64,000 nt of DNA from a virus, in the IMG/VR virus record IMGVR_UViG_3300010885_049871, positions 25,551 to 89,550 of that record. One strand, written 5' to 3'. The translations under genes and the position numbers were made by a program. Positions within the stretch are counted from its first letter, which is position 1. The number at the start of each line of letters is the position of its first letter. Of this stretch, positions 17,909 to 61,616 are shown piece after piece. The notes under the pieces were generated by a model. The model saw only the letters and a program-made list of their open reading frames with translations. It was not told the DNA's origin and searched no databases.

Positions 17909-18998
17909 ATTAGTAATAGACACAGGATGTGGAATACACGACGAACTCGCAGGGTATGTCGATGATACGTTTTCTAATTTTCAAGAGCACACGCTGATTC
18001 CCAATGCTATATATTTGATAAGTTACGCCGAGACTGAGAAAAATTTTAAAAAAATTGCAAAGTTGGCAACCTCTAACATTATAAAAGTTATTTTTGCTGA
18101 ACCGTCTGAAGGGTCGAGTACTGCAATACATCGTTGTAATCGGCAAAGGTTTCGTACTAAAGCGCCCAATGGAAATGGCCACATTGAACTACTTGAGTTA
18201 ATCAAACAAGGAAAAATATTATTATTAACCGGTGGCGATGTTTCGCCACAATATCCGCATTTGGTGTATGAAAATTTTCTCCCAAAGATACTGGACTATG
18301 ACGAAAATATTGACGCCATACAAATTTATAATAACACCTATTCAACCAACCGACCATATAAATTTTTATTTTTAAACGGAAAAGGAAGACCTCATAGAAA
18401 ATTTATGATCGAACAATTGGCCGACGTACTTGATACAGCACTGTGGAGTAATTTAGATCCTACCAATGGCCCAGTGAAATTACTTGATCAGCAATACGAA
18501 CTTGACCGTTTTAATGTAGACGTGTGTCGGACTGATACAAATGTAAAAGAATACTTGTTTGGGTCCGGTATATGGGGAGAGGTGTATCTAGTCCCGTCGC
18601 AGTATAGCAATACCTATTTTAGCCTGATAACCGAAACTGTTCAGCAATATAACTTCAGTTTCAGAACAGAAAAAACATGGAAACCTATTGCAATCGGGCA
18701 TCCATGGATTGCAGTTGCCAATCAGGGATATTATAGAGATATCCGTAATTTGGGATTTCAAACATTTGGACATGTCATTGACGAAAGTTTTGATGAAATA
18801 GCAAACAATCAAGATAGGATGATGCAAGTAAGTCGTGTTGTTAAAGATTTATGTCAACAAGACCTTGCAAGTTTTTTAAAAGAATGCTATAATGTATGTA
18901 AATACAATCAACAACATATTGCAGAGATGAGAACTCGAGTTCGATCCGAGTTTCCAGAACGCTTCCGACAGTTTATAAACAAACATATCAATGAATGA
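17892..18998 (+). CDS. Glycosyltransferase-like protein with EKTWKPI..GFQTF signature
   Basis: I choose the ATG at 17892 with GGAAGGA 11 bases upstream; longer GTG starts at 17865 or 17883 are possible. The protein has about 368 residues. The signature 'FRTEKTWKPIAIGHPWIAVANQ' plus 'IRNLGFQTFGHVIDESFD' at about residues 260-310 groups it with the genes at 13996, 30920 and 32097. It lies between two radical SAM genes and overlaps both. Local composition is more AT-rich than its neighbours, which may mark separate acquisition. Confidence 0.6.
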   Translation: MLGNRKLVIDTGCGIHDELAGYVDDTFSNFQEHTLIPNAIYLISYAETEKNFKKIAKLATSNIIKVIFAEPSEGSSTAIHRCNRQRFRTKAPNGNGHIELLELIKQGKILLLTGGDVSPQYPHLVYENFLPKILDYDENIDAIQIYNNTYSTNRPYKFLFLNGKGRPHRKFMIEQLADVLDTALWSNLDPTNGPVKLLDQQYELDRFNVDVCRTDTNVKEYLFGSGIWGEVYLVPSQYSNTYFSLITETVQQYNFSFRTEKTWKPIAIGHPWIAVANQGYYRDIRNLGFQTFGHVIDESFDEIANNQDRMMQVSRVVKDLCQQDLASFLKECYNVCKYNQQHIAEMRTRVRSEFPERFRQFINKHINE

Positions 18999-22809: not shown

Positions 22810-24088
22810 AACACTATGTATGGCGCCGTGGACTCACACTTATTTAAGTCCGCAAACTGAACGCAGAATGTGCTGTGCCAGCCGAGAGCCCGCACAAAGT
22901 TTTACACAGTACATTGATACCCAAGCTGGCACAGGCCGATACACTCCCATTACACTGGATCAACACTGGAACAGTGAGCATATGAAGAGTGTGCGCCGTC
23001 GTATGATGGCCGGAGAAACACTGCCAGAATGTGATGTATGCAACAACAAACTGCTGAATACCAATGTTTACCGTAGCTATTTCTGGAGTATGTTCAAACA
23101 TAAGTACTCTAGCATTTGGGAAACTACCAATGACGACGGCAGCACCAGCATGTTGCCAGTCAGTTGGGACTACAGATTCAGTAACTTATGCAATTTCAAA
23201 TGCCGCATGTGCGGTGACATGTTGAGCAGTGCATGGGAAAGCGAACAGCGCCAGCACAACATGATTGATTGGTCCAACTCAAAGAACAATTGGATGCAAA
23301 CTGAGGTCAGAAAGGATATCTCCCGGTTTCAAGATCAACAAATTGAAGCAGAATTTGCGCAGGCTGTTGAAGAACACCGCGTTGAAGAAGTGTATTGGGT
23401 TGGTGGCGAGCCTTTGATGTACGAACAACATTGGCGCTATATGAAACGCATTGTTGAACTTGGAGATGGGCATAAAGTTTATGCGAGATATAATACTAAC
23501 CTTTCGAGAATTAATTATCGTGGTGTCGATCTCTTTGATGGGATTCTACATGGCCTTCGTGATTGGCAAATCTGTGCGAGCCTCGATGGCACACAACGCA
23601 TTGGTGAATATATTAGAACAGGCCTTGACTATGCTGGCTGGCGCAAAAATTACGATAGAGCAGTTGCAGCAAGAACTAACAGACGCCAGGTTAGAATCGA
23701 CTTCACTCTTACCCTGCCGGGAATGTTTGAAATTGAAAACATTGTGCAACTTGCACAACAAACAGACACCGACATCTTAGCAAAAGTGGTATTTGCGTTT
23801 TCTCCGGACATTGTAATGAGCCCGTTGGCCTTGCCGCGGCGCCTGCTTGATCCGTGGCTGGATGAGTTAATAGACTCTTGCTCAGATGCAATGCAAGATA
23901 TTCTGGTGCAATTAAAAACCCGGCCAACCTTTGAAGAACAATGGCCAGACACTTGGCAAGCAGGCCTTGTTCAAGGCAAGCAGCGTGTGTTAAAGCTAGA
24001 ACAAATTCGCGAAGATAAATTTACAATGGCCGATATACTAGCAGGGCGTCCTGATGTATTAAAATGGTGGAATCAAATTGACTGTTAA
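22796..24088 (+). CDS. Radical SAM enzyme with N-terminal twitch-like Cys domain
   Basis: About 430 residues; I prefer the ATG at 22796 (MSKPETLCMAPW) over an in-frame TTG two codons earlier. The N-terminus has a CC pair and 'ECDVCNNK'. The core motif is 'LCNFKCRMCGDMLSSAW', with 'YWVGGEPLMYEQH' for SAM binding. It overlaps the previous gene by 14 bases and the next by 11. It is the last of the six-gene radical SAM run. Confidence 0.9.
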   Translation: MSKPETLCMAPWTHTYLSPQTERRMCCASREPAQSFTQYIDTQAGTGRYTPITLDQHWNSEHMKSVRRRMMAGETLPECDVCNNKLLNTNVYRSYFWSMFKHKYSSIWETTNDDGSTSMLPVSWDYRFSNLCNFKCRMCGDMLSSAWESEQRQHNMIDWSNSKNNWMQTEVRKDISRFQDQQIEAEFAQAVEEHRVEEVYWVGGEPLMYEQHWRYMKRIVELGDGHKVYARYNTNLSRINYRGVDLFDGILHGLRDWQICASLDGTQRIGEYIRTGLDYAGWRKNYDRAVAARTNRRQVRIDFTLTLPGMFEIENIVQLAQQTDTDILAKVVFAFSPDIVMSPLALPRRLLDPWLDELIDSCSDAMQDILVQLKTRPTFEEQWPDTWQAGLVQGKQRVLKLEQIREDKFTMADILAGRPDVLKWWNQIDC

Positions 24089-25181: not shown

Positions 25182-25279
25182 ACTGGATTAAAAATTTAAT
25201 TGGCCGTATCCGCTTAGAAATACGCTATCGTAAAAAACTCAAAGAACTTCGCAAACGAGATCCGTTTATCTACAAATGA
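25178..25279 (+). CDS. 33-residue basic peptide, ATGA-coupled on both sides
   Basis: ATG at 25178 overlaps the previous stop; its own stop overlaps the ATG of the carbamoyltransferase. The product (MNWIKNLIGRIRLEIRYRK, ending KELRKRDPFIYK) is an amphipathic, strongly basic helix with a fixed-looking 'RKRDPFIYK' end. I recall similar C-termini on very small phage proteins. The double overlap makes it a real gene. Roles to consider are a small regulatory peptide or a substrate of the adjacent radical SAM enzymes; neither is shown. Confidence 0.75.
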   Translation: MNWIKNLIGRIRLEIRYRKKLKELRKRDPFIYK

Positions 25280-26790
25280 AATTAAAAAAGTATTTGGGAA
25301 TCAGCGCCGGCTATCACGATGCTGCTGTCAGCATGATCGACTCTTACGGATCTGTTCTGTTTGCTGGTCATGCAGAACGCTATAGCAAGAGCAAGAATGA
25401 CGCACACCTAAATGATGAATTAGTGGCAGCAGCACTGAGTCACGGCACACCAGACCAAGTGGTCTACTACGAACGTCCATGGATCAAAAAACTACAACAA
25501 CTTTACTCCGGGCAATATCATGAAGCGTTTGATCTTAATTCTTTTACTCTTGGTCAGTATCTCCGTAAACATCTATCTGCTGGTCCACATCTCAGCACTT
25601 TACTACATGCTGAACACTGTTACACAGGACACCATGCTGCCCACGCCGCCGCGGGATTTCAGACCAGCCCCTACAACAGAGCCACAGTGGTTGTGATAGA
25701 TGCTGTAGGAGAACTAGACACCATAACCATTTGGGGCGCTGAATACAACTCCGCAGGCCGAGCAACTTATAAAAAACTTTGGTCCCGCGGATATCCGCAC
25801 AGTATAGGATTGTTTTACAGTGCAGTCACTGCTCGAGTGGGTCTTAGGCCATTAGACGAAGAATACATTCTAATGGGCATGGCTGCGTACGGACAAAACA
25901 ATATCAGCAATCGACTACGCTACGATCTCGTCGACCATGAATATGAAATTCGGTTTAAAGAAAATTTACACGCAGGGCTCGAAGCCAAGTATCTAAGTGA
26001 TTATTCGGACTTTGACATTGCAGCGGCAGCACAAAGCCTGGCTGAAGATCTTATTTTGAATGTAATGTTTCGTGCAAAAAAATTGGACTGGAGCAACAAT
26101 CTAGTGTATATGGGTGGTGTTGCTCTTAACTGTAGTGCCAATCGACTTATTGGAAATTATTTTGACAATATTTGGATCATGCCAAGCCCGGGCGATAGCG
26201 GCAGCAGTCTTGGTGCCGCAGCATTGGCCCACGGTGGCCGTATTAATTGGACGGACGCTTTCTTGGGTGACAGCATTGGTGGTAAATATCCTGTTAATGC
26301 TATTCTGGACACACTGGTTACAGACCGCATTGTGGGCGTGGCCTCAGGCCGTGCAGAATTTGGGCCGCGAGCACTGGGCAATCGCAGTTTACTAGCAGAT
26401 CCGCGTGGCCCAGATATAAAGGATCAAGTGAATGAGATCAAACGCAGACAACAATTCAGACCATTTGCGCCAGTTATCCTTGAAGAATACGCTGATCAGT
26501 ATTTTGATATGCCTAGGGGTTTCAGCAACAGTAGGTATATGCAGGCAGTCGCTGTCTGCCGCCATCCTGATCTTTTTCCTGCTATTGTGCATCATGATGG
26601 TACTAGTAGAGTGCAGACAGTTCCTGCGGATGGTTCAGGCATTAGAGAACTACTGGAAAAGTGGTTTGTAATGACTGGTTGTCCCATGCTGCTGAACACC
26701 AGTCTTAACATACGCGGAGAGCCCGTGGTAAATGACAGATCCGACGCTGATCGCTTTGAACAATTGTACGGAGTAAAGGTCCATTCATAA
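25276..26790 (+). CDS. O-carbamoyltransferase, NodU/CmcH/TobZ family
   Basis: A 504-residue protein with the family N-terminus 'KYLGISAGYHDAAVSMID', the metal/carbamoyl-adenylate histidines 'HCYTGHHAAHAAAGF' (about 114-128) and the YrdC-like C-terminal core 'GRAEFGPRALGNRSLLADPRG' and 'FRPFAPVI'. Family enzymes use carbamoyl phosphate and ATP to put a carbamoyl group on a sugar or antibiotic hydroxyl. Both domains are present and full length is slightly short of typical. It is coupled to the 33-residue gene upstream and the oxygenase downstream. Confidence 0.9.
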   Translation: MKLKKYLGISAGYHDAAVSMIDSYGSVLFAGHAERYSKSKNDAHLNDELVAAALSHGTPDQVVYYERPWIKKLQQLYSGQYHEAFDLNSFTLGQYLRKHLSAGPHLSTLLHAEHCYTGHHAAHAAAGFQTSPYNRATVVVIDAVGELDTITIWGAEYNSAGRATYKKLWSRGYPHSIGLFYSAVTARVGLRPLDEEYILMGMAAYGQNNISNRLRYDLVDHEYEIRFKENLHAGLEAKYLSDYSDFDIAAAAQSLAEDLILNVMFRAKKLDWSNNLVYMGGVALNCSANRLIGNYFDNIWIMPSPGDSGSSLGAAALAHGGRINWTDAFLGDSIGGKYPVNAILDTLVTDRIVGVASGRAEFGPRALGNRSLLADPRGPDIKDQVNEIKRRQQFRPFAPVILEEYADQYFDMPRGFSNSRYMQAVAVCRHPDLFPAIVHHDGTSRVQTVPADGSGIRELLEKWFVMTGCPMLLNTSLNIRGEPVVNDRSDADRFEQLYGVKVHS

Positions 26791-27346: not shown

Positions 27347-28123
27347 ATGAAACTACCGTTTATAACAGCAGTTGTACTTGTGGCTAGCAGCTGGGCAAAT
27401 GCCGCAACCAGTGTTTGGGTCTACAATCAAACCCAGGATGCAATTGTGCTAAATCAACAAGCCAATACTGTTAGACCCATTGCATCTATTACCAAACTGA
27501 TGACAGCAATGGTGGCTCTGGATCATGATCCGGTGTTGAGTCGCAGTGTAAAACTTAGTGATCGTGTGGGCAGCAAGTTGCCACCGGGTCAGTACACACG
27601 CCGACAGTTGTTTGATGCCATGCTGGTCAGCAGCAATAATGCAGCAGCAGAAACATTGGCACAAGACTATCCCGGTGGACGATCAGCGTTTGTTCAAGCA
27701 ATGAATCGTCGTGCCAGTGGCCTGGGTATGACAAGCACTCGATTTCAAGATCCGTCAGGACTGAGTCGAAACAATGTGGGCACTGCGGGGGACATGGGCA
27801 CCTTGGTCACAACTGCCGGCAAGTATGCACTGATCCGAGAAATCAGTGTGCAACGACAGATTCAAATTGAATCACATTTTAAAAAACGCATTCGGGTAAT
27901 TTCTTTGCCCAACACCAACCAGCCTCTGTTGTTTGATTTTGATAACATACATGTTAGTAAAACAGGATTTACTAATCCAGCCGGTTGGTGTGTGGCATTG
28001 TTGGTAGAAAAAAACAAACAGACGTTTGCTATAGTAGTGTTGGGTGCTGAAAACAAATCCAAGAGATTAGACACAATAAAAGATTTGATGTACAATCACA
28101 TCAGTGACACAATAGAATTCTGA
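27347..28123 (+). CDS. pbpG: D-alanyl-D-alanine endopeptidase, PBP7-like
   Basis: A 258-residue protein with an N-terminal signal peptide (cleavage near ANAA, residues 17-20). The three active-site motifs of serine peptidase S11 are intact: S47-x-x-K50 (ASITK), S95-x-N97 (SSNN) and K205-T-G207. It would cut DD-crosslinks in host peptidoglycan in the periplasm. Sequence and length match short betaproteobacterial PBP7 proteins rather than phage endolysins, so acquisition from the host is likely. It ends in a 28-base overlap with a convergent radical SAM gene. Confidence 0.9.
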   Translation: MKLPFITAVVLVASSWANAATSVWVYNQTQDAIVLNQQANTVRPIASITKLMTAMVALDHDPVLSRSVKLSDRVGSKLPPGQYTRRQLFDAMLVSSNNAAAETLAQDYPGGRSAFVQAMNRRASGLGMTSTRFQDPSGLSRNNVGTAGDMGTLVTTAGKYALIREISVQRQIQIESHFKKRIRVISLPNTNQPLLFDFDNIHVSKTGFTNPAGWCVALLVEKNKQTFAIVVLGAENKSKRLDTIKDLMYNHISDTIEF

Positions 28124-36429: not shown

Positions 36430-37505
36430 GCTAATACCTGATCAATAACATAGTCCACTTCACTATCCGTTAGTTCAGGATAGATTGGTAGACTCAATGC
36501 TCGTCTACTCAATGCACTTGCAGCACTGACAATACTGGGCCCAGCATACTGTTGATATGCATCTAGTTCGTGCAGCGGATGTTGATAATGCACTCGGGTT
36601 TCTATGCCCGCAGATCGTAGGGCAACTTGCAGTTGGTCTCGATTGCTGGTATCAATAACAAACTTGTGAAAACAGTGAGCGGATACATTTGAGTCATCGA
36701 TCAAACAACGAAACGGTGCATCTCGAAATGCCGCCATGTATTGACGTGCAATGCTTTCTCTGCGAGCTTGCCATTGATCTAGATACGCAGTCTTCGCCAT
36801 CATTTGCGCACAGTCTACTTCGCTCATTCTTGAGTTAGAGCCGGTTCGTGCATGGCCGGATCGTTTACCGTTGTCACACCAGTTACGAGCATAGTCACTT
36901 AGATTGCGATCATTGGTGACAACGGCACCGCCGTTGCCGTAGTTGTTTAGATTTTTCATAGGGTCAAAACTGATAGCACTGGCTTCACCCAACCGATGAC
37001 ACTGGTCAGACAACCAGTGTTGTGCTGCATCTTCAATGAGCAAGGGTTTGATCCGGCGTAGGTTGTCGTGCAATGCTGCCCCATACAATCCAATGCCAAG
37101 TATGGCATGGTAATTAAGATCCCGCGGTATATCGCCAAATTTTATGTTGCCGTATGCATCAGTATCAATCAAGTGTATGTTCCATCCTGCTCGTACAAAC
37201 GCATTTGCACTGGCCGGAAACGTCATGGCAGGAATCAACACCGTGGGTGGGGTTGGCTGGACATACAGGCTATTCTCTGTACGGTAATAACCAGCCAGTA
37301 TTTCCAAGGCCTGCGTACCCGAGTGACACAGCACTGCATAATTTGAATGATTTTTTGCTGCCAACCATTCCTCAAACTGCTGAGTGAACGGGCCGTTCAT
37401 GAGATTGCCAGATGCTAGTACCTGATCAGTAACATCTAGTATCTCTTTTCTTAGATTGGCGTACTGTCTTTGAAGACCAGTAAACGCTATTTGAAAACCG
37501 TTCAT
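36417..37505 (-). CDS. DegT/DnrJ/EryC1/StrS-family aminotransferase
   Basis: A 362-residue PLP enzyme. 'VLCHSGTQALEI' (cofactor phosphate loop), 'LIEDAAQHWL' (Asp/Gln contacts) and 'ISFDPMKNLNNYGNGGAVVTND' with the Schiff-base Lys are in the usual order. Family members transaminate keto-sugars in nucleotide-sugar pathways, using glutamate as donor. It is coupled by ATGA to the radical SAM gene and lies two genes from an epimerase, which supports an amino-sugar pathway. Confidence 0.88.
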   Translation of the reverse strand: MNGFQIAFTGLQRQYANLRKEILDVTDQVLASGNLMNGPFTQQFEEWLAAKNHSNYAVLCHSGTQALEILAGYYRTENSLYVQPTPPTVLIPAMTFPASANAFVRAGWNIHLIDTDAYGNIKFGDIPRDLNYHAILGIGLYGAALHDNLRRIKPLLIEDAAQHWLSDQCHRLGEASAISFDPMKNLNNYGNGGAVVTNDRNLSDYARNWCDNGKRSGHARTGSNSRMSEVDCAQMMAKTAYLDQWQARRESIARQYMAAFRDAPFRCLIDDSNVSAHCFHKFVIDTSNRDQLQVALRSAGIETRVHYQHPLHELDAYQQYAGPSIVSAASALSRRALSLPIYPELTDSEVDYVIDQVLACLT

Positions 37506-39073
37506 ACTGTTTTTTCTTTAAATTCTTTAAGAATCTTCTCAATTGTTTTCTTTGAAGGACTTACTTTTTTAAACAGTTGTCCAAAAATCATACGAAAAAA
37601 TTTATGGCGTTTGCGTGGTGTATCTTGCCACCAACTGGGCTCTTGATAAATTATAGTGTCAGCTTGATCGCACACTTTCTTTAAGTTGTCTGTGCCTCCC
37701 ACATCTGCCAAGCTGGTGTAGTAGATGCCTGGTTGTAATTTATCGTGTACATTATCCGTGGTGATTTTTACAGCATTGCGATCACGATCTCGCGCACTAA
37801 CTTCTAGGTACCATCCCAGTGGATGTACATGGTCACCAATGTACACAATTATTTTACCAAAATCAATGCCGAGATCTGCGCCTGCATACCCGTATTGTTT
37901 AATTAATTTGGCAAATTCAGGAAACACATGATCGAAGTTTTCTTTTCTAATCTCATCCAACGCCTGTGTTATCTGTAAAAATTGTTGCCAGTTCGCAGGC
38001 ACCACTGGCTGATTTAACCAGTTTACAAATTCATCAAATGCGTTATCATCTTTTAGTACTTCAATCACTTGAGATTTTAATGCTTGGGGCATGTGTTTAA
38101 TGTTGAGCCATTCAGGCTCAACCAACAAGTTCCAGAAAGGATCATTGCCCAACAGTTGTTTTACTTGTTGTTTTATCTGTGGCAAATAAAAGATGTTCAG
38201 TATGCTTACAGTAGTAATTGACGTAATTGTAACTGGAACTGCATGCTGTAAAAAATATGCTTGCCATTGTTTGATATTTGAAACTAATTTTTCATAGTCT
38301 AATCCGTGACGGGTATATTCAAAATGTGCGCCAATGCCATCAATGCTGACACCAATTTCAACACTGCGGAACCGATGTAACAATGGAATACGATTGACAA
38401 TGTCCGAGCTGCCATTGGTGTTTATATACAAGTCTATGTGCGAACTATTTCCGGATTCGACAATTTGGTTTATCAAGTTAATTACTTTTTTATTGTAGGT
38501 TGGCTCACCACCAAACAACTCCAGTCTGGCCAAATGGTTGCTGAGTACAAGTATTTCTTCAATTTGAGAATCAGACCAGTTGACTTCTTTCACATCAATG
38601 CGGTATATAGATTTACCTGTTCGTTGTTCCAGTTGTATTGCATCGGCGGTCCATCGACTGCTGTCTCCGGGATGGCAAGAACGACATTTTGCATTGCACA
38701 CATTACCACTTTTGATAGATAATAATTTAGGCCCACGACGATACTCACCGGATTTGATGTCTTGCATCACTTCTGGGTTTTGCAACAGCGGATAGTCACT
38801 GGTGTGATTCACTGGATCCCGCAGGCGAAGTCTAAGACTTTTTTTGCCGTGTGCTTCTTCGTCCCAACAACGATTACAAATTGGTGATTTTACATTGGAA
38901 AGGAAATCGGTCCTGAGACTTTCTATTTCTGGGCTGTTCCAACTTTCCGAAATTGTTTGATATTGTGGCGCCCAAGTGGTTCCGCCCAGGTACGGACATG
39001 GGCTAAAAGATCCCGACGGAGACGTAGTAATTTGTAAGAATGGTGCTACACAAAAATTATTAGATTCGTTCAT
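37502..39073 (-). CDS. Radical SAM enzyme, N-terminal twitch plus extra C-terminal domain
   Basis: The start is set at 39073 (MNESNNFCVAPF), which gives the PF/PCP-type N-terminus of the family and a 14-base overlap with the epimerase. N-terminal cysteines C8, C26, C66/C69 (ICNRCW). Core motif C126, C130, C133 (VCNAKCRSCHPGDSSRW) and 'LFGGEPTYNKK'. About 130 residues follow the usual end ('ADLGIDFGKIIVYIGDHVHPLGWYLEV', later 'ADTIIYQEPSWW'), an added domain not seen in its paralogues here. Confidence 0.88.
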   Translation of the reverse strand: MNESNNFCVAPFLQITTSPSGSFSPCPYLGGTTWAPQYQTISESWNSPEIESLRTDFLSNVKSPICNRCWDEEAHGKKSLRLRLRDPVNHTSDYPLLQNPEVMQDIKSGEYRRGPKLLSIKSGNVCNAKCRSCHPGDSSRWTADAIQLEQRTGKSIYRIDVKEVNWSDSQIEEILVLSNHLARLELFGGEPTYNKKVINLINQIVESGNSSHIDLYINTNGSSDIVNRIPLLHRFRSVEIGVSIDGIGAHFEYTRHGLDYEKLVSNIKQWQAYFLQHAVPVTITSITTVSILNIFYLPQIKQQVKQLLGNDPFWNLLVEPEWLNIKHMPQALKSQVIEVLKDDNAFDEFVNWLNQPVVPANWQQFLQITQALDEIRKENFDHVFPEFAKLIKQYGYAGADLGIDFGKIIVYIGDHVHPLGWYLEVSARDRDRNAVKITTDNVHDKLQPGIYYTSLADVGGTDNLKKVCDQADTIIYQEPSWWQDTPRKRHKFFRMIFGQLFKKVSPSKKTIEKILKEFKEKTV

Positions 39074-40025
39074 GCCAGTATTTACTTGTGTTGAGCCACT
39101 CATAGTATTTCTGAAATCCTTGTTCAACATCAACTTGTGGGTCAAAGCCCAAGATGGTTCTTGCACGATCAATGTTCAGTGCTCCGCGACTGGGAAAGTC
39201 AGCATCTCTGTCTTGACATTCAATGGTACCAGAACCCACAATCTTCACAATCATTTCGGCTGCTTGTAACAGGCTCACTGAATGTGATTTGGTAATGTTG
39301 TATGTTCGATTGGCACTCATGATTCTAGTTGCAGCAGCGACCACACCATCCGCAGCATCATCCACATAGGTAAAGTCCAGTGTTTCGCCTGCTCCGTTGA
39401 CTTTCAGCACACCACCACGCATGGCTGTCAGCATGAACTTGGCAACCACGCGGTCTTCTACATCTAAGGGTCCGTACACAGCACTGGGTCGAAGTATCAC
39501 ATACTCCATGCCGGTTCTGCGAGCATAGTCCTTGACCAACCATTCCCCGGCCAGCTTCATGATGCCATATTGTCCTTGTGGCTTACACTCGTCATCTTCC
39601 AGTACCTGATCTTCAAAGTCGCCGTAGACCATGCTACTGGACATGTACACAAATCTGCGAACCTGGTGTTTTTTGGCACTCTCAAGAAGATTGATTAGAC
39701 CACGCATCATGACATCAGCAGCGTGTGCAGGGTTGGCATTGACTACTTTTTGTCTGGGAAAGCTGGCACAGTGTATGATCACCTCTGGAGTTTCAGCAGC
39801 AACAATGGCATCTATGCGATCTGCATTTTCAATGTAGTCATGATAGTGACTACACAGTGCTAGTTTTTTAAGACGCTCTCCGATCAAGTAGTCAACTTCT
39901 TCACGCGGAATAATACCGTAGGTGGTTTGATTGTCCACAATGCTCACTGTGTCTTCACGCTGCTGTAAACGAACTGCCACATTGTGACCAATCAGTCCCA
40001 GTCCGCCAGTTATCAATACTTTCAT
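39060..40025 (-). CDS. NAD-dependent nucleotide-sugar epimerase/dehydratase
   Basis: A 321-residue extended SDR starting at the ATG at 40025, which overlaps the previous stop (ATGA). 'MKVLITGGLGLIGHNVA' is the GxxGxxG NAD loop, 'FVYMSSSMVYGD' holds the catalytic Ser, and 'QYGIMKLAGEWL' is the YxxxK motif. 'LRPSAVYGPLDVEDRVV' is typical of UDP-sugar epimerases. Probably works with the DegT aminotransferase two genes downstream. Confidence 0.9.
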   Translation of the reverse strand: MKVLITGGLGLIGHNVAVRLQQREDTVSIVDNQTTYGIIPREEVDYLIGERLKKLALCSHYHDYIENADRIDAIVAAETPEVIIHCASFPRQKVVNANPAHAADVMMRGLINLLESAKKHQVRRFVYMSSSMVYGDFEDQVLEDDECKPQGQYGIMKLAGEWLVKDYARRTGMEYVILRPSAVYGPLDVEDRVVAKFMLTAMRGGVLKVNGAGETLDFTYVDDAADGVVAAATRIMSANRTYNITKSHSVSLLQAAEMIVKIVGSGTIECQDRDADFPSRGALNIDRARTILGFDPQVDVEQGFQKYYEWLNTSKYWHERI

Positions 40026-52787: not shown

Positions 52788-53609
52788 TTATTGTCCCAGA
52801 CCCAGATGCACTGTTGATGGTCTTTTGACTAAGAATTCTTTGAAAGCAGCTGATTTTAAAATTTCAGTCAACACAGACACAGTATCTTTGGACACTGTGC
52901 TCATGCCCCACAAATCTATAGTCACATAGTGATTGTTGTACTTGCCCGGGGCAAACTGTCCCAGGAATGGCAAACCATAATGATTCTTTGCTGTGGATGC
53001 TGCAATACATTTACCGCCAGCACTGACAACAGCTTCGGCACCATTGGCAATGAAGATCATATCAACATCAGTTCCTGCAATCACAGCAGCCCTTGCAGCA
53101 GCATTGGCTTCGTATGGAATAGTACGAATATTCAGTTTTGGGGAACTATTAGCCACAAGATTGGTCCACGGCGGCAGTGTAACAGGTCCAGACGTTATGG
53201 CCACTTTATAAGTTTGTGTGCCAGTAAGATCTGCCAGGGTGATATTTGTTTTTGCAGGTGAAGTACACAGATAGTGTGTTGTGCTGGCCAGATTAGTGAC
53301 AAATTTAAATGCAGGATAATCTTTCTGTGCCGGGCAAAGACCTGCTGCATCTTGCATATCTCCACCACTCATGACAACAAATGCATTTTCTTGAGTTTTT
53401 GCTCGAATCAATGCATCGTGGCACGATTTAAAAAATTCTTGTTTGACTGTGTGGCCTTTGTTTCGTAGCCCTTCAATTACCGGCATCGACCAGACTTCGG
53501 TACCACCGCCAGGTGGATAATAGTAGTTGAAGTGATAGGTGTCGGCCATTGCGGCAGCGGATGCAACAGCAAATGTAATTGCCGTAAAAAACTTAGAAAA
53601 TTTACTCAT
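52788..53609 (-). CDS. tctC: TTT-family periplasmic solute-binding protein (Bug/TctC)
   Basis: A 273-residue protein with a signal peptide (residues 1-22, AAAMA|D). 'NYYYPPGGGTEVWSMPVIEGL' is the ligand-binding beta-strand/loop of Bug proteins, and 'NITLADLTGTQTYKVAITSGP' the second-lobe entry. It is about 40-50 residues shorter than bacterial TctC. It would deliver carboxylates or similar solutes to the TctA permease encoded just upstream in the same operon. Confidence 0.85.
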   Translation of the reverse strand: MSKFSKFFTAITFAVASAAAMADTYHFNYYYPPGGGTEVWSMPVIEGLRNKGHTVKQEFFKSCHDALIRAKTQENAFVVMSGGDMQDAAGLCPAQKDYPAFKFVTNLASTTHYLCTSPAKTNITLADLTGTQTYKVAITSGPVTLPPWTNLVANSSPKLNIRTIPYEANAAARAAVIAGTDVDMIFIANGAEAVVSAGGKCIAASTAKNHYGLPFLGQFAPGKYNNHYVTIDLWGMSTVSKDTVSVLTEILKSAAFKEFLVKRPSTVHLGLGQ

Positions 53610-53618
53610 AATTTCTCC

Positions 53619-54944
53619 TTAAAAGTTGAGTAATAAAAATCGGAAAATTTCCGATGATACTGACATTGACAAAAGCATGCCAAATATCAGTGCAACGCGA
53701 ACAGAAAACTCTTTTACAAAAAAACCAACCAACACGGAGACCGCAGTCAACGACAGGTACAGGCCAAGTTGTTGGTTGGTTATTCCTTCTGAAACACACA
53801 CCGCTATGCTCAGTGCAATCAGGACGGGATAGATTATCTTGCTCAAGCGAATGTAGAGAGAAATCATATGTTGATAAAACATTCCGGCAACGAACCAATT
53901 GACTACATTGACCAGTACCAGTATCAAAATCAATGGGCCAGCCAGTGCTGCTATCAAATTGAAACTGTTGTTGATTCCAAATCCGCTGCGTTCAGCCAGC
54001 GCCATGATCACTGCTTCGGATGGAATAATGGGCAATGCTAGAAATATCAATGGTATCAACACAGTGATGGCAGCTGAATTGTTGGCAGCTTCTGCAGAAA
54101 TTACTATTTGTTGATTGTTGTTGTTGATCTTTTTTTCAATCACTGCTGCGACCATTGATGATACCGATGTTCCTATCATGGGTACCAAGCCCATCACTGC
54201 ACCTATCACGGATCCACGCAGGGATGACAACACCGGCGGGAATTTTAACAATGTTGCCAAACGGGTCCGCATACCAAACTCATTTGAATTGATGTTGACA
54301 TTCAACAATCTGTGCCTTGCGTGATGCACAATCTCTGGCAACATTAGAAATCCAATGAACACAGGCACAAACGGAATGCCACCTGGCAGAAAATCTGCAG
54401 CAGATAAAAAGTGCTCACGCCTCAAACTGTCGTACCCAATGTGTCCAATCACTAACCCTGCAATTGCAAATGCCAGCGCCAGGATCTTTTGTTTGCTGGC
54501 CGCACTGATCAACAAAATAAGCACAGTTAACAATACCAATCTTGGAGTGTTGTTGATAAAGTACTTCATAAAATCAATATACTGTGTGGCTGCATAGAAA
54601 ATCACAACACCCACAACGGATGCTATCAGACTGGATGTGGCAGTGCCGCTTAGTAATTCTGCGCCACGACCTTGCCTAAATTCGTCATGGCCATACTGCA
54701 CTGCCGGCACACTGGTGATTTCTCCGGCTATGCCATACACAATGGATGGTATGCTGCTGTAATACTGTACTGAAGACATCATCACTGAATAAAATACAAA
54801 CAAATCCACCACTGGTAATCCAAGCAAAACAGGATACAAGATCATTATCCCAGATGCAGGTCCTACTCCGGGGAATACACCAATCACAATGCCGCTGACT
54901 ATGCCAAGCAGTATGATTGGTAACAGATACAGTAACTCTGTCAT
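53619..54944 (-). CDS. tctA: TTT-family large permease subunit TctA
   Basis: A 441-residue membrane protein with about 10-12 hydrophobic segments. The N-terminal 'ILLGIVSGIVIGVFPGVGPASG' is the TctA signature, and a second copy-like 'RGSVIGAVMGLVPMIGTSVSS' follows at about 245-265. The acidic/Pro pattern of the second half is kept. Bacterial TctA is usually near 500 residues. No tctB gene is visible. It sits in the inner membrane. Confidence 0.88.
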   Translation of the reverse strand: MTELLYLLPIILLGIVSGIVIGVFPGVGPASGIMILYPVLLGLPVVDLFVFYSVMMSSVQYYSSIPSIVYGIAGEITSVPAVQYGHDEFRQGRGAELLSGTATSSLIASVVGVVIFYAATQYIDFMKYFINNTPRLVLLTVLILLISAASKQKILALAFAIAGLVIGHIGYDSLRREHFLSAADFLPGGIPFVPVFIGFLMLPEIVHHARHRLLNVNINSNEFGMRTRLATLLKFPPVLSSLRGSVIGAVMGLVPMIGTSVSSMVAAVIEKKINNNNQQIVISAEAANNSAAITVLIPLIFLALPIIPSEAVIMALAERSGFGINNSFNLIAALAGPLILILVLVNVVNWFVAGMFYQHMISLYIRLSKIIYPVLIALSIAVCVSEGITNQQLGLYLSLTAVSVLVGFFVKEFSVRVALIFGMLLSMSVSSEIFRFLLLNF

Positions 54945-56077
54945 TTGATTTTGTACTCCTGTGAACTGACCGCATAGTATGATTGCACTGATTGCTGGTC
55001 TGAAGACAACAGTCCCATCCGCACCATGTATGATATCAGTGTTTGGTCTGTTTGTAAAATATGCCAGCCGTTGATGTATTTTTTTACAGCAGAAGATTGA
55101 CGCTGCAATCCTGACAGCAATGGCAAGCTGGTAGAATTTTTTGATAGTTGGTACAACACTGAAGCTGAAATTTCTTTTGAAAAATCAATTGATTTCACTA
55201 TACTGTCATGCCCGGCATTGATTTGTTTTTCCATTTGACTAATTCCCGGTATTACCTCCGGATCGCGACCTTGTACTGCACACTTTAAATAGTAATTTTC
55301 TGGTTTTTCTAATTCTGTCAGCGATGTATTGGTCCTTAGACAATAGTTCAACATCATATGACACTGTTTGGCATGCAGTTCTGGCATGTCAGGAGATATA
55401 AAAAAGAACTCTAGGTCGCTGCGATTTAGTGCGCCAGCAAATAAGCGGTCGGAAAATCCAAAGTAATAGCCGTCTTTGCGCTGAACCAACTGGGGCTTTT
55501 CAAAGCCCACAATTGTGCAGTAGTTATAATTGTTGTAGGATTGATCAAAATTGTCTTGATGCAGCACAGGCCGGCAGTATTTGACCAATTGATGTCTGAG
55601 ATTTTTATCATCGTTTACCATGTAATCTTCTGACGAAAGTTGTTTTTCGTATCCAAGAATATCGTCGTGAGTATGTACTGATTTAATATTGATTTTTGTA
55701 GTCTTGTCTGGATGATTTTCCAACAACCAGGTCACTGCTTTTTCTGGTATTAAATTGTCAACGCCGGATCGTGCGTAACAAATGTAAATCTCATCTAGGT
55801 GTATGTTGTTGCGTAGAAAGGTGTTGTATATGGTGATTGAGTCAGTGCCACCACTGAATGCCAGTGTAAGTTTATCATATCTGTTTCTCAATTGATGTGC
55901 TCGTCTGTCACACAGTGTTTGAAAACTTTCCGCTGGTTCTATGGTCCAGTCAACCGTGGCAAACTCACGGTCGTAGAACTCAAATTTTGGAAATGTATGA
56001 GGATCGTGTATGGACCCGTGCAGGAATGCCGTGAACGGATTGTCAAATTTTATTCCATTGATATTGTAATAAACCAT
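54941..56077 (-). CDS. PP-loop ATPase, asparagine-synthase-like
   Basis: A 378-residue protein. 'LTLAFSGGTDSITIYNTFL' at about residues 90-108 is the PP-loop SGGxDS. There is no N-terminal Cys glutaminase domain, so any amide nitrogen would come from elsewhere. 'YNYCTIVGFEKPQL' and 'FGFSDRLFAGA' follow as in phage and bacterial relatives. ATGA-coupled to tctA, so it may act on the imported substrate by adenylation. Its own promoter lies upstream. Confidence 0.8.
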   Translation of the reverse strand: MVYYNINGIKFDNPFTAFLHGSIHDPHTFPKFEFYDREFATVDWTIEPAESFQTLCDRRAHQLRNRYDKLTLAFSGGTDSITIYNTFLRNNIHLDEIYICYARSGVDNLIPEKAVTWLLENHPDKTTKINIKSVHTHDDILGYEKQLSSEDYMVNDDKNLRHQLVKYCRPVLHQDNFDQSYNNYNYCTIVGFEKPQLVQRKDGYYFGFSDRLFAGALNRSDLEFFFISPDMPELHAKQCHMMLNYCLRTNTSLTELEKPENYYLKCAVQGRDPEVIPGISQMEKQINAGHDSIVKSIDFSKEISASVLYQLSKNSTSLPLLSGLQRQSSAVKKYINGWHILQTDQTLISYMVRMGLLSSDQQSVQSYYAVSSQEYKIK

Positions 56078-56145: not shown

Positions 56146-56175
56146 ATTATAACAGTAAAGACATTGCTATGTCAA
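56146..56175 (-). promoter_or_regulatory. Sigma70-type promoter of the PP-loop/tctA/tctC operon
   Basis: TTGACA, 18 bases, TATAAT on the minus strand. The leader is about 65 bases. Confidence 0.8.
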
Positions 56176-56296: not shown

Positions 56297-57136
56297 TTAG
56301 AACGAGTGTGATACACGAACACGATATGTGTCGGTATTGTTGGCAGCAGTTGTGTTGCTGCTGACTTGTGCCACGGCCAATTGAACTGAAGTTCTCTTGC
56401 TCAATGCATACTCAGCGCCAACCTCTTTGGCAGTGCCATTACCATCAGAATATGCAGCGCCCACAGTCACAGCACCTACAGTGTAGGAAGCACCTACCAC
56501 ATAGGAGTCGGCAACATTGCGTTCATTGCGACTGACACCTGCACCAACTGTGATGCCTTTTACAACAACTTTGGCACTGGCGCGAACCCGCTCAGTTGTT
56601 TGGTTGTAATCAACAGCACTGCTGACTGGGCCAACTGTGTAAGTTGCACCAAACACATTTTTGTTTGTGCCGGTGTTGTTGATGGCTCTAGTGTTGCTGA
56701 CTTTGAATGCCAGTCCCGACACTGTGGGTGTTGTGTAGCTGACAGATTGCACATTGGACTTGGCGCCCAACACAACTCCGTCTTGACCTATAACCGGTGC
56801 ATCACCTAGCCCAAGACCAATGATGCCATTGGCAGATTCAATTTGACCAACTTTGACTGAACCAACCGGAGTTGCAACATCAACATACATGTCGTTACCT
56901 TCGGCAGCAGTGCCGTTTCCGCCTGGCTGAATTTCTGCATAGGCCTTGACAGTTATGCCATTGCCAATGGATTCTGTAGCAGTAAAGTTGATATTGCTGG
57001 TGTCCATTGGAGACATTGTGGTTACGGTGTTGTCTGACCGCTTGATGTCGTATGCAAGTTTTCCGCCAATTTTAAACTGGGCGTGAGCTGTACCTAATGC
57101 AGCCAAAATTGCTACTGCGACTAATGCTTTTTTCAT
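56297..57136 (-). CDS. Gram-negative outer-membrane porin
   Basis: A 279-residue protein with a typical betaproteobacterial signal peptide (MKKALVAVAILAALGTAHAQ). Mature sequence is made of short amphipathic beta strands and Gly/Asn turns, and ends in 'TYRVRVSHSF', a C-terminal Phe beta-signal for the BAM complex. 'TPVGSVKVGQIESANGIIG' is the classic trimeric-porin motif. It is about 70-100 residues shorter than host porins, so it may have fewer strands or trimmed loops. Monocistronic, with its own terminator. Confidence 0.92.
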   Translation of the reverse strand: MKKALVAVAILAALGTAHAQFKIGGKLAYDIKRSDNTVTTMSPMDTSNINFTATESIGNGITVKAYAEIQPGGNGTAAEGNDMYVDVATPVGSVKVGQIESANGIIGLGLGDAPVIGQDGVVLGAKSNVQSVSYTTPTVSGLAFKVSNTRAINNTGTNKNVFGATYTVGPVSSAVDYNQTTERVRASAKVVVKGITVGAGVSRNERNVADSYVVGASYTVGAVTVGAAYSDGNGTAKEVGAEYALSKRTSVQLAVAQVSSNTTAANNTDTYRVRVSHSF

Positions 57137-57182
57137 TGTGTATTTCCTTTGTAAGTGTGAAGGGGCAGAATTGCCACTGGAG

Positions 57183-57190
57183 TATTTATT
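57183..57190 (-). promoter_or_regulatory. NATAAATA late-promoter-like motif upstream of porin
   Basis: AATAAATA on the minus strand about 46 bases before the porin ATG. No sigma70 -35/-10 pair is evident there, so late expression is suggested. Confidence 0.5.
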
Positions 57191-57341: not shown

Positions 57342-57623
57342 ATGAAACAACTTATTGCTATTATCGCTACACTCGCTACCGCCACTGCATTTGCCCAGGC
57401 TCCTGCTGCTGCACCTGCTGCTGCAAAACCGGCTGCTCCTGCTGCTGCGCCTGCTGCTCCGGCCGCCGCTGCTCCTGCTGCCAAGAAAGAAGAAGCCAAA
57501 CCTGCTGCTAAGAAAGAAGAAGCCAAGAAGCCAGCTGCTAAGAAAGAAGAAGCCAAGCCTGCCAAAAGTGCACCGGCTGTCGACGCAAAAGCAGCAACTC
57601 CAGCTGCACCAGCAAGCAAGTAA
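57342..57623 (+). CDS. Secreted Ala/Pro/Lys-rich low-complexity protein
   Basis: A 93-residue protein with a signal peptide (MKQLIAIIATLATATAFAQ) and an AAGGA ribosome site. The mature part is Ala/Pro runs followed by three repeats of 'AKKEEAKPA'. Very similar proteins are common in Comamonadaceae, so host origin is likely. It may be periplasmic and basic. A further open stretch in the +1 frame (57622-57801) follows immediately and shares the same terminator. Confidence 0.75.
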   Translation: MKQLIAIIATLATATAFAQAPAAAPAAAKPAAPAAAPAAPAAAAPAAKKEEAKPAAKKEEAKKPAAKKEEAKPAKSAPAVDAKAATPAAPASK

Positions 57624-57890: not shown

Positions 57891-58215
57891 TTACTATTTT
57901 CTGTTTCTAAGCATAGTTGCTCAAAGCAGTGTTTAGACTGCTAAGGAGTGGCGTTGTGCTGTACGAGCAGAGAACTTGACGTTCTTACCTGAAACAGTTA
58001 CTTCACCTGTATTTGCGTTTGCATTTACGGTTTTTGTGTCTACGGCCGAAATACTCCGACCCTACGGCTTCTACATTGCCGGACTGTCCATTTCCGTACT
58101 CTTGACCCAATCGATAGCCTGGTCATCCCCACCTAAATATACCTTATACACTTAGGTGGAGATGGTGGGAGTCGAACCCACGTCTTGAATCCTTTTCTGT
58201 CTACTTCATACAGTC
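57891..58215 (-). ncRNA. ssrA: Permuted two-piece tmRNA with a 29-residue tag
   Basis: On the minus strand the T-arm (GTGGG-TTCGACT-CCCAC) and 3' acceptor strand CATCTCC-A-CC come first (to 58154). A short AT-rich loop follows, then the 5' acceptor strand GGGGATG at 58130. Acceptor pairing includes the G3-U70 wobble required for alanine charging, and the discriminator is A. The tag frame runs 58022-57933: resume codon GCA preceded by GTAAAT, as in betaproteobacterial tmRNA, then ANANTGEVTV... to ...RHSLAV and TAA. A NATAAATA motif at 58224 and a terminator at 57864 delimit the gene. Confidence 0.88.
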
Positions 58216-58931: not shown

Positions 58932-59005
58932 TGGTCTCAGTAGCAGGAATCGAACCTACGCTCCTTGGTCCCAAACCAAGAGTGATACCATTTCACCATA
59001 CTGAG
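58932..59005 (-). tRNA. tRNA-Pro(UGG)
   Basis: Acceptor CTCAGTA/TACTGAG, anticodon loop TTTGGGA, T-loop TTCGATT, CCA encoded. All arms pair. Confidence 0.93.
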
Positions 59006-59014
59006 AAAATCAAC

Positions 59015-59088
59015 TGGTACCTCGTGACAGAATCGAACTGCCGTCTGCGCTGTGTAAAAACGCGGCCCTACCATTAGACGAACGAGGC
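59015..59088 (-). tRNA. tRNA-Val(UAC)
   Basis: Acceptor GCCTCGT/ACGAGGT with a G1-U72 wobble; anticodon stem GCGTT/AGCGC with loop TTTACAC; CCA encoded. Confidence 0.92.
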
Positions 59089-59096
59089 AAAAAATA

Positions 59097-59172
59097 TGGA
59101 GCGGCTAACCGGGTTCGAACCGGTGACGTCTTGCTTGGCAAGCAAGTACTCTACCAACTGAGCTACAGCCGC
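59097..59172 (-). tRNA. tRNA-Gly(GCC)
   Basis: Acceptor GCGGCTG/TAGCCGC, anticodon loop TTGCCAA in a CTTGC/GCAAG stem, discriminator U, CCA encoded. Confidence 0.93.
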
Positions 59173-59182
59173 ATATATTAAC

Positions 59183-59258
59183 TGGTACCAAGAGACGGGA
59201 TCGAACCGCCCACACACGAATTTTCAATCCGCTGCTCTACCAACTGAGCTATCTTGGT
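59183..59258 (-). tRNA. tRNA-Phe(GAA)
   Basis: Acceptor ACCAAGA/TCTTGGT, anticodon loop TTGAAAA, T-arm with TTCGATC, CCA encoded. Confidence 0.93.
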
Positions 59259-59259
59259 G

Positions 59260-59334
59260 TGGTGGAAGTAAGTAGATTCGAACTACTGACCCGCAGCGTA
59301 TGAAGCTGCTGCACTACCGCTGTGCTATACTTCC
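59260..59334 (-). tRNA. tRNA-Met(CAU), elongator-type or Ile2
   Basis: Acceptor GGAAGTA/TACTTCC fully paired (so not initiator), anticodon loop TTCATAC, discriminator A, CCA encoded. If C34 were modified to lysidine it would read AUA as Ile; sequence alone does not settle this. Confidence 0.9.
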
Positions 59335-59344
59335 AGAACTGCTG

Positions 59345-59421
59345 TGGGGTATAGTATGGAATTCGAATCCATGCTGACGGAATCACAATCCGTAGTGCTG
59401 ACCGCTGACACTAACTACACC
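59345..59421 (-). tRNA. tRNA-His(GUG)
   Basis: Encodes the extra G-1 opposite C73, acceptor GTGTAGT/ACTATAC, anticodon loop TTGTGAT, CCA encoded. These are the histidine identity features. Confidence 0.93.
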
Positions 59422-59493
59422 ATAGAAAAACACACTGTACGCAACCTCTTATGCGCTGGGGTGACCAGAATTTAATCCCAATGTGTTTATCTA

Positions 59494-59569
59494 TGGTAGG
59501 ACCACCCGGACTCGAACCGGGAATTGGCAGATTAAAAGTCTGCTGTGATAACCATTTCACTATGATCCC
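59494..59569 (-). tRNA. tRNA-Lys(UUU)
   Basis: Acceptor GGGATCA/TGGTCCT, anticodon loop CTTTTAA, T-arm with TTCGAGT, CCA encoded. Confidence 0.93.
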
Positions 59570-59631
59570 ATTGTCAGTCGTGAATTGTCTTTCAAGTGCC
59601 AATCCAGACCGACATGGGATCTGGGTTGACA

Positions 59632-59655
59632 CTACATTTTAGCTGTTTGCTTCAT
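59632..59655 (-). CDS. Possible 7-codon leader peptide
   Basis: MKQTAKM followed by TAG, with AGAGG upstream, on the leader transcribed from the promoter at 59682 before tRNA-Lys. No known function. Confidence 0.3.
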   Translation of the reverse strand: MKQTAKM

Positions 59656-59681
59656 ATAGTACCTCTTTGGTTTAAGTTTTG

Positions 59682-59710
59682 ATTGTACAACAATTTCAGA
59701 ATGTTGTCAA
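59682..59710 (-). promoter_or_regulatory. Sigma70-type promoter for downstream tRNA block
   Basis: TTGACA, 17 bases, TACAAT on the minus strand, just after the Thr tRNA and before Lys, His, Met, Phe, Gly, Val and Pro tRNAs. Confidence 0.75.
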
Positions 59711-59720
59711 CTGTTTTTTT

Positions 59721-59794
59721 TGGTGCCCCACGACAGAATCGAACTGCCATCACAGGATTACAAAACCAGTGTACTGCCATTGTACTAGTAGGGC
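59721..59794 (-). tRNA. tRNA-Thr(UGU)
   Basis: Acceptor GCCCTAC/GTGGGGC, loop TTTGTAA, CCA encoded. The anticodon stem has two U-U mismatches (28-42 and 31-39). Confidence 0.88.
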
Positions 59795-59801
59795 TAAAAA
59801 T

Positions 59802-59877
59802 TGGCTCCTCAGGTACGGATCGAACGTACGACATCTTCATTAACAGTGAAGCGCAACTACCGCTGTGCTACTGAGGA
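59802..59877 (-). tRNA. tRNA-Asn(GUU)
   Basis: Acceptor TCCTCAG/CTGAGGA, anticodon stem CTTCA/TGAAG with loop CTGTTAA, discriminator G, CCA encoded. Confidence 0.93.
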
Positions 59878-59885
59878 ATAAAACT

Positions 59886-59973
59886 TGGCGGAATGACTCG
59901 GACTCGAACCGAGAAGCCGTTTAACCGACCGACGGCTTAGCAAGCCGCTCCAATACCATTATGGGACCATTCC
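59886..59973 (-). tRNA. tRNA-Ser(GCU)
   Basis: Class II with a long variable arm, acceptor GGAATGG/TCATTCC, loop TTGCTAA, discriminator G, CCA encoded. Confidence 0.92.
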
Positions 59974-59989
59974 AAAAACTAACATTGCT

Positions 59990-60018
59990 ATTATATAACA
60001 GTTGACCAACAGTGTCAA
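59990..60018 (-). promoter_or_regulatory. Consensus sigma70 promoter for the Ser/Asn/Thr tRNA block
   Basis: TTGACA, 17 bases, TATAAT on the minus strand: both hexamers perfect. The -35 overlaps the radical SAM stop codon. Confidence 0.88.
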
Positions 60019-61157
60019 CTGATATTCGCCTGCGGAAACACCGCTAGGTAATTGGTGCCTCTAATGTCGTCCAGTAGGTCAATGTAGTCTTTAAACTTGC
60101 GATACAACTCAGCATCATAACCAGCAGAGTCAATCATGCCTACAATCAATGATCTCTGGCTGTGGTCAATGTCAGTGCTGGACTCTGCCCAGGACTTAAA
60201 CGGCACCAGATGATCTACCGGCACTGAGTGCAAGCTCAAATGCGGATATCCAGATATTGTGGTAATATGCACACGCAGGCTCTGCAGTTTTGCAAATGCC
60301 ATCAGGTCCGGCAGCGCATACGCACTGGTGTGTTGCAGCACATGATTGACGGTTAGTCTTGCCTGTGGCAATTGTTGTTTGAGCAGTTGAATATTTGATT
60401 CAATATCACTCCACCGACTTGGATGTCTGACATAATCATTCATTGCACCGGTACCTTCTAGGCTGATACAGATCTCTATGTCTTTAAATTTTTGCAATGT
60501 AGTCAACAGTTTATTACCAACTTCGGTTAGATTAGTGTTAAAGCTCACAACAACATCGTTGCATCGAGGCATCAACATTTGTAAGAAGTTGACCACTTCA
60601 GGAATGATAAACGGTTCACCACCTGTGATGTTTACTCTACGAACATCGGTTGTCAGCACAGTCTGTGCAAACTGTTTGAATTCTTCATCTTTCCAGTAGT
60701 ACGGCATGTCGCCCACTGCGTTCTGAGCACCAATTTTTACAAAACGATCGTGATATTTGACACGTTCTGCGGCAATACTAGAACTTGATGCTGGGCCACA
60801 CATGATGCATTTGAGATTGCAAAAATTGCCTAGTCTTAGTTCTAAATCATAGATTGGATTGTCTGCACTGACGGCTGTGACATCCGAAGGATACCATTTA
60901 TTTTGGTGTTGTCTTAGACTAGTCCAGCCATGTTGTTCTTCTCTATAGCATTTAACACATCCTGCATGCGGTCGGCCAGCAGCCGCATCTGCTTGCATCT
61001 TTGTAGGTATATCTGCTAGATACTGATCAAACTTGGTGTAATGATGTTTAGTTTTTATTTTAAAATCTTGGTCATACTGACAACATGGCTCAATTGTGCC
61101 GTTGGCATTTACACAAATACTATGATAAGCGGCCTGACAGCTGGTCGAAGTTGACAT
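60015..61157 (-). CDS. Radical SAM enzyme with N-terminal twitch-like Cys domain
   Basis: A 380-residue protein. N-terminal cysteines C15, C25, C26 (EPCCQYD) and C67/C70 (GCVKCYREEQHG) precede the core motif C113, C117, C120 (FCNLKCIMCGPASSSSIAAE). 'NITGGEPFIIPEV' is the SAM site. It lies alone between two tRNA blocks, far from the main radical SAM array but with the same domain order. A GCTAAATA box is upstream. Confidence 0.9.
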   Translation of the reverse strand: MSTSTSCQAAYHSICVNANGTIEPCCQYDQDFKIKTKHHYTKFDQYLADIPTKMQADAAAGRPHAGCVKCYREEQHGWTSLRQHQNKWYPSDVTAVSADNPIYDLELRLGNFCNLKCIMCGPASSSSIAAERVKYHDRFVKIGAQNAVGDMPYYWKDEEFKQFAQTVLTTDVRRVNITGGEPFIIPEVVNFLQMLMPRCNDVVVSFNTNLTEVGNKLLTTLQKFKDIEICISLEGTGAMNDYVRHPSRWSDIESNIQLLKQQLPQARLTVNHVLQHTSAYALPDLMAFAKLQSLRVHITTISGYPHLSLHSVPVDHLVPFKSWAESSTDIDHSQRSLIVGMIDSAGYDAELYRKFKDYIDLLDDIRGTNYLAVFPQANIS

Positions 61158-61216
61158 CTACGATTTCTTTCAATTTATAAAAATATTTAGCAATTGACAC
61201 AGTGTTAACATATATT

Positions 61217-61290
61217 TGGTACCATGTACAGGTAACGATCCTGTGTCTATCGGTTATCAGCCGATTGCTCTACCTTTGAGCTAACGTGGT
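61217..61290 (-). tRNA. tRNA-Ile(GAU)
   Basis: Acceptor ACCACGT/ACATGGT, anticodon stem ATCGG/CCGAT with loop CTGATAA, CCA encoded. Confidence 0.92.
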
Positions 61291-61297
61291 ATTTGTA

Positions 61298-61371
61298 TGG
61301 CAGAGGGTACTGGGATCGAACCAGTGATGACAGAGTCAAAGTCTGTAGTGTTACCGCTACACTAACCCCCA
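61298..61371 (-). tRNA. tRNA-Gln(UUG)
   Basis: Anticodon loop CTTTGAC in ACAGA/TCTGT, weak U1-U72 first pair as expected for glutamine identity, discriminator G, CCA encoded. Confidence 0.9.
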
Positions 61372-61379
61372 ATAAAACT

Positions 61380-61453
61380 TGGTGGAGGATGAGAGAATCG
61401 AACTCTCATAAACAGCTTGCAAAGCTGCCGTAATCCCATTATACTAATCCCCC
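61380..61453 (-). tRNA. tRNA-Ala(UGC)
   Basis: Acceptor GGGGGAT/ATCCTCC, loop TTTGCAA, discriminator A, CCA encoded. The third pair is G3-U70, the alanine determinant. Confidence 0.93.
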
Positions 61454-61460
61454 GTTATCT

Positions 61461-61537
61461 TGGCCGGCCCTGAGAGACTCGAACTCCCAACCTCTGGTTT
61501 CGAAGACCAGCACTCTAATCCATTGAGTTAAGGACCG
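61461..61537 (-). tRNA. tRNA-Arg(UCG)
   Basis: Acceptor CGGTCCT/AGGGCCG, anticodon stem CTGGT/ACCAG with loop CTTCGAA, discriminator G, CCA encoded. Confidence 0.92.
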
Positions 61538-61542
61538 ATATT

Positions 61543-61616
61543 TGGCGTACCCACTAGGACTCGAACCTAGACTGACGGTTTTGGAGACCGCAATGCTGCC
61601 ATTACACTATGGATAC
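61543..61616 (-). tRNA. tRNA-Trp(CCA)
   Basis: Acceptor GTATCCA/TGGGTAC, anticodon stem GCGGT/ACCGT with loop CTCCAAA, discriminator G, CCA encoded. Confidence 0.93.

Follow-up and report, generated by a model that had tools for sequence, protein, structure and literature searches.

The window, a stretch of 64,000 nucleotides from a linear virus record of 89.5 kb, itself a fragment with kinship to a phage contig of 340 kb, encodes on its minus strand at 56297..57136 a protein of 279 aa, which an earlier note on this DNA had described as a signal-peptide-bearing, Phe-ending and notably short outer-membrane porin with a terminator of its own. The open reading frame proved to be real and its product a general porin by its match to Pfam Porin_4 (E=5.6e-26, 92.5 bits at a cut-off of 27, residues 7-262 on profile positions 1-309), by an AlphaFold2 model and by fold matches in the PDB. 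As read off the sequence, residues 1-19 (57080..57136, minus strand) form a signal peptide, MKKALVAVAILAALGTAHA^Q, with cleavage at AHA^Q, a pattern also present in the phage homologues, and the C-terminus RVRVSHSF provides the Phe beta-signal. The mature porin has 259 aa compared with 289-355 residues in the solved porins that it matches. Right after the gene, at 56278-56257 of the minus strand, lies a strong intrinsic terminator hairpin, AAAGGCTAC-TTCG-GTAGCCTTT-TTTTT, in a 61-nt region with a folding energy of -20.4 kcal/mol (z=-5.3 versus shuffles). Between the window record (G000) and its closest relative G001 (labels from G001 onward denote IMG/VR contigs), 58 synonymous and 21 non-synonymous differences give a dN/dS of 0.10, so the protein is maintained under purifying selection; for G000 and G003 the dN/dS is 0.21 with dS saturated.

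Strand number and constriction loop, the modelling of which had been proposed in the earlier note, were assessed with AlphaFold2 on an alignment of eight phage homologues, as four homologues alone gave a pLDDT of 30 and the addition of the clade II sequences described below rescued the model. The resulting model of moderate confidence (pLDDT 68, pTM 0.61) is a complete barrel of exactly 16 strands with the constriction loop L3 between strands 5 and 6 (residues 102-126, 25 aa; 56759..56833, minus strand), a loop of normal length whose own path is modelled with low local confidence. The modelled surface loops total 73-82 residues versus 102-112 in three Burkholderia porins, numbers which depend on the moderate-confidence model and on distant alignments, and the porin appears to be short because these loops are shortened. 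Foldseek retrieved from the PDB OmpU, PorB, Omp32 with malate, the Rhodopseudomonas blastica porin and Omp38 (E about 1e-10 to 1e-11, TM 0.6-0.7), and a profile of the phage porins matched PorB over its full length with 1.6e-21, as well as Omp38 and Omp32, all of them betaproteobacterial. On this model the window porin is a minimal 16-strand general porin of the betaproteobacterial type, which would be expected to assemble as a trimer and to form an open outer-membrane pore.

With PorB of Neisseria, Omp38 of Burkholderia and Omp32 of Delftia the phage porin has in common the profile, the 16 strands, L3 and the C-terminal HxF, but the mature phage porins comprise 257-273 aa compared with about 310-355 in betaproteobacterial general porins, show only about 27-30% identity to them, possess shorter surface loops and are located in a putative phage uptake island. 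The mature phage porins have a pI of 7.8-9.4 and a net charge of +1 to +5. On a tree they form one group with a support of 93/92, and the nearest bacterial porin is that of Hydrogenophaga (82/84) among the few bacterial porins sampled, a comparison set which is plasmid-borne and biased. Proteins of uncultured Caudovirales annotated as 'OmpC porin' (BFVD A0A6J5L4P1 and A0A6J5LP82), compared as database entries, are predicted phage porins of similar fold.

The porin was said to sit beside transporter genes, which holds with a single gene intervening. This gene (54941..56077, minus strand) encodes a protein of 378 aa with an SGGTDS motif of the PP-loop ATPase type, as read off the sequence, for which a Pfam search gave nothing significant and the family of which recurs at the porin loci of relatives. 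It is followed by tctA (53619..54944, minus strand; 441 aa), the inner-membrane subunit of a tripartite tricarboxylate transporter (PF01970, E=1.1e-48), which supports the proposed link to this transporter type, and by a gene (52788..53609, minus strand) for a 273-aa protein with a signal peptide and a PPGGGTE motif. The latter has no Pfam, meaningful PDB or significant profile match, and motif and position suggest that it is a divergent TctC-like periplasmic binding protein. No TctB was recognised beside tctA. On the other side, the plus strand encodes, in divergent orientation to the porin, a secreted repeat protein of 93 aa rich in Ala, Pro and Lys (57342..57623), with a similar gene upstream of the G001 porin, and further on the minus strand there are a permuted, two-piece tmRNA (57933..58215; RF04321, 91.8 bits), which adjoins the porin as in G001 and G008, and an array of 15 tRNA genes broken up by other open reading frames (58932..61616), which flanks the locus. 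The tmRNA tag is ANDSQFALAA in G008 and G009; in the window and G001 ARAGORN reads an odd 29-residue tag, perhaps a misreading.

The close relatives of the porin that were found sit in phage contigs with conserved flanks. The copies in G001 (340,172 bp) and G002 (106,918 bp) are 94% identical to the window porin and the copy in the 67.7-kb contig G003 is 49% identical, with synteny to G001 across most of the window and to G003 in part; G001 carries genes for terminase, baseplate wedge, tail tube, head-tail adaptor, virion proteins and endolysin. G001 also encodes a canonical TctC (PF03401, E=3e-24; L021:2643-3596, that is G001:42643-43596) near the endolysin gene, the relatives of which (65-100% identical) were found at 27 viral loci, several of which belong to contigs 320-350 kb long. 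A search for porin genes in related phages, as suggested in the earlier note, covered these TctC-derived and later contigs with the Porin_4 profile and found them in ten IMG/VR records (G000-G004, G008, G019-G022). They fall into two sub-clades about 29% identical to each other, clade I with the window, G001, G002 and G003 and clade II with G004, G008 and G019-G022. No close match to the window porin was found among isolate phages and plasmids, a Burkholderia porin as query had no match among the viral contigs, and a scan of 84,980 genomes of bacteria and archaea for short-peptide patterns, which is a weak test, detected no relative of the porin; a pattern scan of bacterial genomes for TctA likewise gave none. 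Chromosome-only relatives with identical flanks had been named beforehand as the outcome that would speak against carriage by a phage; the flanks found are those of phage contigs, and the gene for the window porin genuinely belongs to a phage. Judged from the closest bacterial porins and from the permuted tmRNA, the host may be a member of the Burkholderiales and the habitat freshwater. A moraphage lineage (PMC12619734) considered as a published relative was dropped, as porin, TctC and tmRNA are unmentioned there and the hosts are mostly Bacteroidota.

In all ten records the porin gene lies about 0.6-4 kb from a gene for a carboxylate-binding protein (TctC or DctP) or from tctA and a divergent TctC-like gene. 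In clade I the porin is near TctA and, where read, the divergent TctC-like protein; all three occur together in G000, G001 and G003, and G002 shows porin and TctA. In clade II the porin is found 0.6-1.4 kb from genes for TctC (PF03401) and/or DctP (PF03480), namely DctP and two TctC in G004 and in G019/G020, two TctC in G008 (with a PstS-like protein 1.8 kb off on the opposite side), DctP in G021, and TctC and DctP in G022. The gene order around the porin is shuffled from contig to contig, and random placement would be equally close with P 0.02-0.22 per contig, the contigs being related and not independent, so that the proximity is suggestive but falls short of strong statistical proof. A bacterial precedent is a Comamonas plasmid on which a TRAP binding protein gene immediately precedes a porin gene. 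The porin is separable from TctA, since in G008 the porin occurs with no TctA, in G009 TctA occurs alongside a binding-protein-like gene but with no porin, and G012 has neither, in records that may be incomplete.

Several further genes at these loci deserve mention. The clade II DctP genes (PF03480, to 1e-53; L083:6945-7910, L087:4588-5538, L089:6278-7255, L091:5673-6683) are without a signal peptide as read, and their products may be cytoplasmic or their starts missed. Directly before the porin of G003, L004:3416-5884 encodes an 822-aa hybrid sensor histidine kinase, unusual for a phage, with HisKA, HATPase and receiver domains and a CHASE domain slightly below cut-off. In G009, the place taken by the porin in relatives, adjoining tmRNA, TctA and binding protein, is occupied by a gene for a secreted 183-aa protein ending in GLGISVRF (L085:10448-10999), which, judged by eye, is probably a small outer-membrane barrel.

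A T4-like late-promoter motif, AATAAATAC, is located 54 nt before the porin start (57182..57190, minus strand), with the identical motif at the identical place in G001. A consensus extended sigma70 promoter (56146..56175, minus strand; TTGACA-18-TATAAT, 12/12, with TG before the second hexamer) heads the operon of the 378-aa gene, tctA and the TctC-like gene, and is conserved both in G001 and, ahead of tctA, in G003. Across the lineage, TGnTATAAT is present upstream of genes 22 times in sense versus 3 times antisense and precedes genes for primase, AAA, QueD-like and other non-structural proteins. NATAAATA occurs 23 times in sense versus 6 times antisense, about a quarter of the matches being the chance expectation, and lies ahead of genes for endolysin, baseplate, head, adaptor and tail tube and for one single-strand-binding protein. 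As judged from these motifs, the two promoter classes would fit, as expected, a T4-like late and a sigma70-dependent early expression. Porin and tct genes as one operon were considered and rejected, as they are separated by the terminator and by a consensus promoter of the tct genes' own. A generally late expression of the porins was weakened as a proposal by a sigma70-like promoter, TTGAC...TATACT, which most clade II porins have at the matching upstream place. Extended sigma70 promoters also precede genes for large secreted proteases in G001 (L023:5096-7306) and G003 (L039:1288-3948), both matching a PHROG protease and the former alone Pfam subtilase.

By a slight preference, we take the porin to provide passage through the outer membrane within a phage-borne island for the uptake of organic acids. 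The phage porin, if expressed, would admit small anions such as organic acids into the periplasm, where TctC- or DctP-type binding proteins would capture them; phage TctA would then move the organic acids inward, a step left to the host transporter where the phage is without TctA, and the uptake could sustain the long infection by a jumbo phage, with a gain in uptake or burst size. The structural matches include Omp32 solved with malate, the grouping of porin, TctA and TctC-like protein persists in G003 although the porin there is just 49% identical, and pI and positive charge of the phage porins weakly suit an anion-passing pore, overall charge being poor evidence of selectivity. Against the uptake reading stand the late-type motif on the porin versus the sigma70 promoter on tctA, the occurrence of porin and TctA apart from each other, the lack of a recognised TctB and the TctC-like assignment in the window, which is below detection. 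The porin also diverges faster, with 49% identity between G000 and G003 compared with 79% for TctA and 73% for the TctC-like protein, and the proximity of the genes could reflect shared descent of a single cargo region. The earlier note had offered entry of solutes for the tripartite transporter beside replacement of a receptor. Solute entry is better supported than receptor replacement because the porins adjoin TctC/DctP genes even where TctA is lacking.

In receptor replacement the phage porin would displace or dilute the receptor porin of the host, so that rival phages and the phage's own progeny would no longer adsorb to the cell or its debris, and reduced surface loops would hide the barrel from loop-binding phages. 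Such a replacement by lc-type porins is established for phage PA-2, and 42 phage records match E. coli OmpF, with lambdoid porins of the OmpD/NmpC type. The short loops of the window porin would be compatible, although their lengths are drawn from a model of moderate confidence and distant alignments, as would be its divergence, faster than that of the neighbouring genes, and the different, smaller barrel of G009, which is unlikely to be a wide pore. The divergence is, however, not concentrated in the loops (identity between G000 and G003 is 51% in strands, 42% in loops and 64% in L3), a late promoter would imply action after most superinfection, and the proximity to binding-protein genes remains unexplained, so that we consider receptor replacement unlikely. 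That one loop-stripped porin does two jobs, organic-acid entry for the phage binding proteins and presentation of few landing loops to rival phages, seems quite improbable.

The late-type motif common to porin, endolysin and virion genes, and carried as well by the G001 TctC gene near the endolysin, would agree with a late envelope function, in which the porin loads or weakens the outer membrane for lysis or replaces outer-membrane proteins lost in infection. This is doubtful indeed given the sigma70-like promoter on most clade II porins, the spanin-like lipoprotein that G001, as read off the sequence, already encodes after the endolysin, and the conserved folded 16-strand barrel, a poor tool for lysis. 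Accidental cargo, carried along with the tRNA/tmRNA region and of no benefit to the phage, would fit the many variable accessory genes found there, but such an origin is disfavoured to a still higher degree because purifying selection is seen, and the porin is intact in ten records as two clades of one tree group. Porins of the Porin_4 family are ordinary Burkholderiales genes, but contamination by misbinned host DNA is very unlikely, to the point of being hardly credible, because the locus keeps its phage flanks in several contigs, among them G001 with its genes for terminase, baseplate and tail tube, and has no close plasmid or isolate-phage match nor, by the weak pattern scan, one in bacterial and archaeal genomes.

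The lambdoid porins (lc of PA-2, NmpC/OmpD type) resemble the window porin in being phage-borne general porins, but are full-length and enterobacterial and belong to phage records of about 45-50 kb, compared with a different, shortened family beside binding proteins in jumbo phages. Kinship with enterobacterial OmpF, OmpC or OmpD was not found for the window porin, which has no match in the phage collection and betaproteobacterial porins as its nearest relatives. Phage-borne uptake components are likewise represented by the well-known pstS of cyanophages (PMC6359870), with a PstS-like gene also in G008, and by tctA, listed as an auxiliary gene of unknown role on SUP05 phage contigs (PMC4164917). 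These reach the periplasm or inner membrane only, in contrast to the outer-membrane channel with TctC/DctP and TctA here. Phage porins and phage tctA or pstS are known separately; no description of a phage porin with TctC/DctP or other uptake genes was found in the open-access literature, and the combination appears to be new. Phage genes for host nutrition usually act in the cytoplasm, inner membrane or periplasm; if the uptake reading is true, some jumbo phages rebuild an uptake route across both membranes, and uptake by the infected cell becomes a directly testable question. The locus also provides a naturally minimal porin and a means of telling feeding and superinfection exclusion apart.

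Elsewhere in the window, several radical-SAM-type genes are found at 14948-24088, 37502-39172 and 60015-61157, as judged from Pfam or PHROG matches for those starting at 14948, 16496 and 60015 and from mutual similarity for the remainder. Together with a Nol-like carbamoyltransferase (25276-26790) and proteins of the PP-loop type, they resemble a gene cluster for biosynthesis or modification. At 27347-28123 on the plus strand, a secreted protein of the D-alanyl-D-alanine carboxypeptidase type is encoded (Peptidase_S11, E=1e-40).
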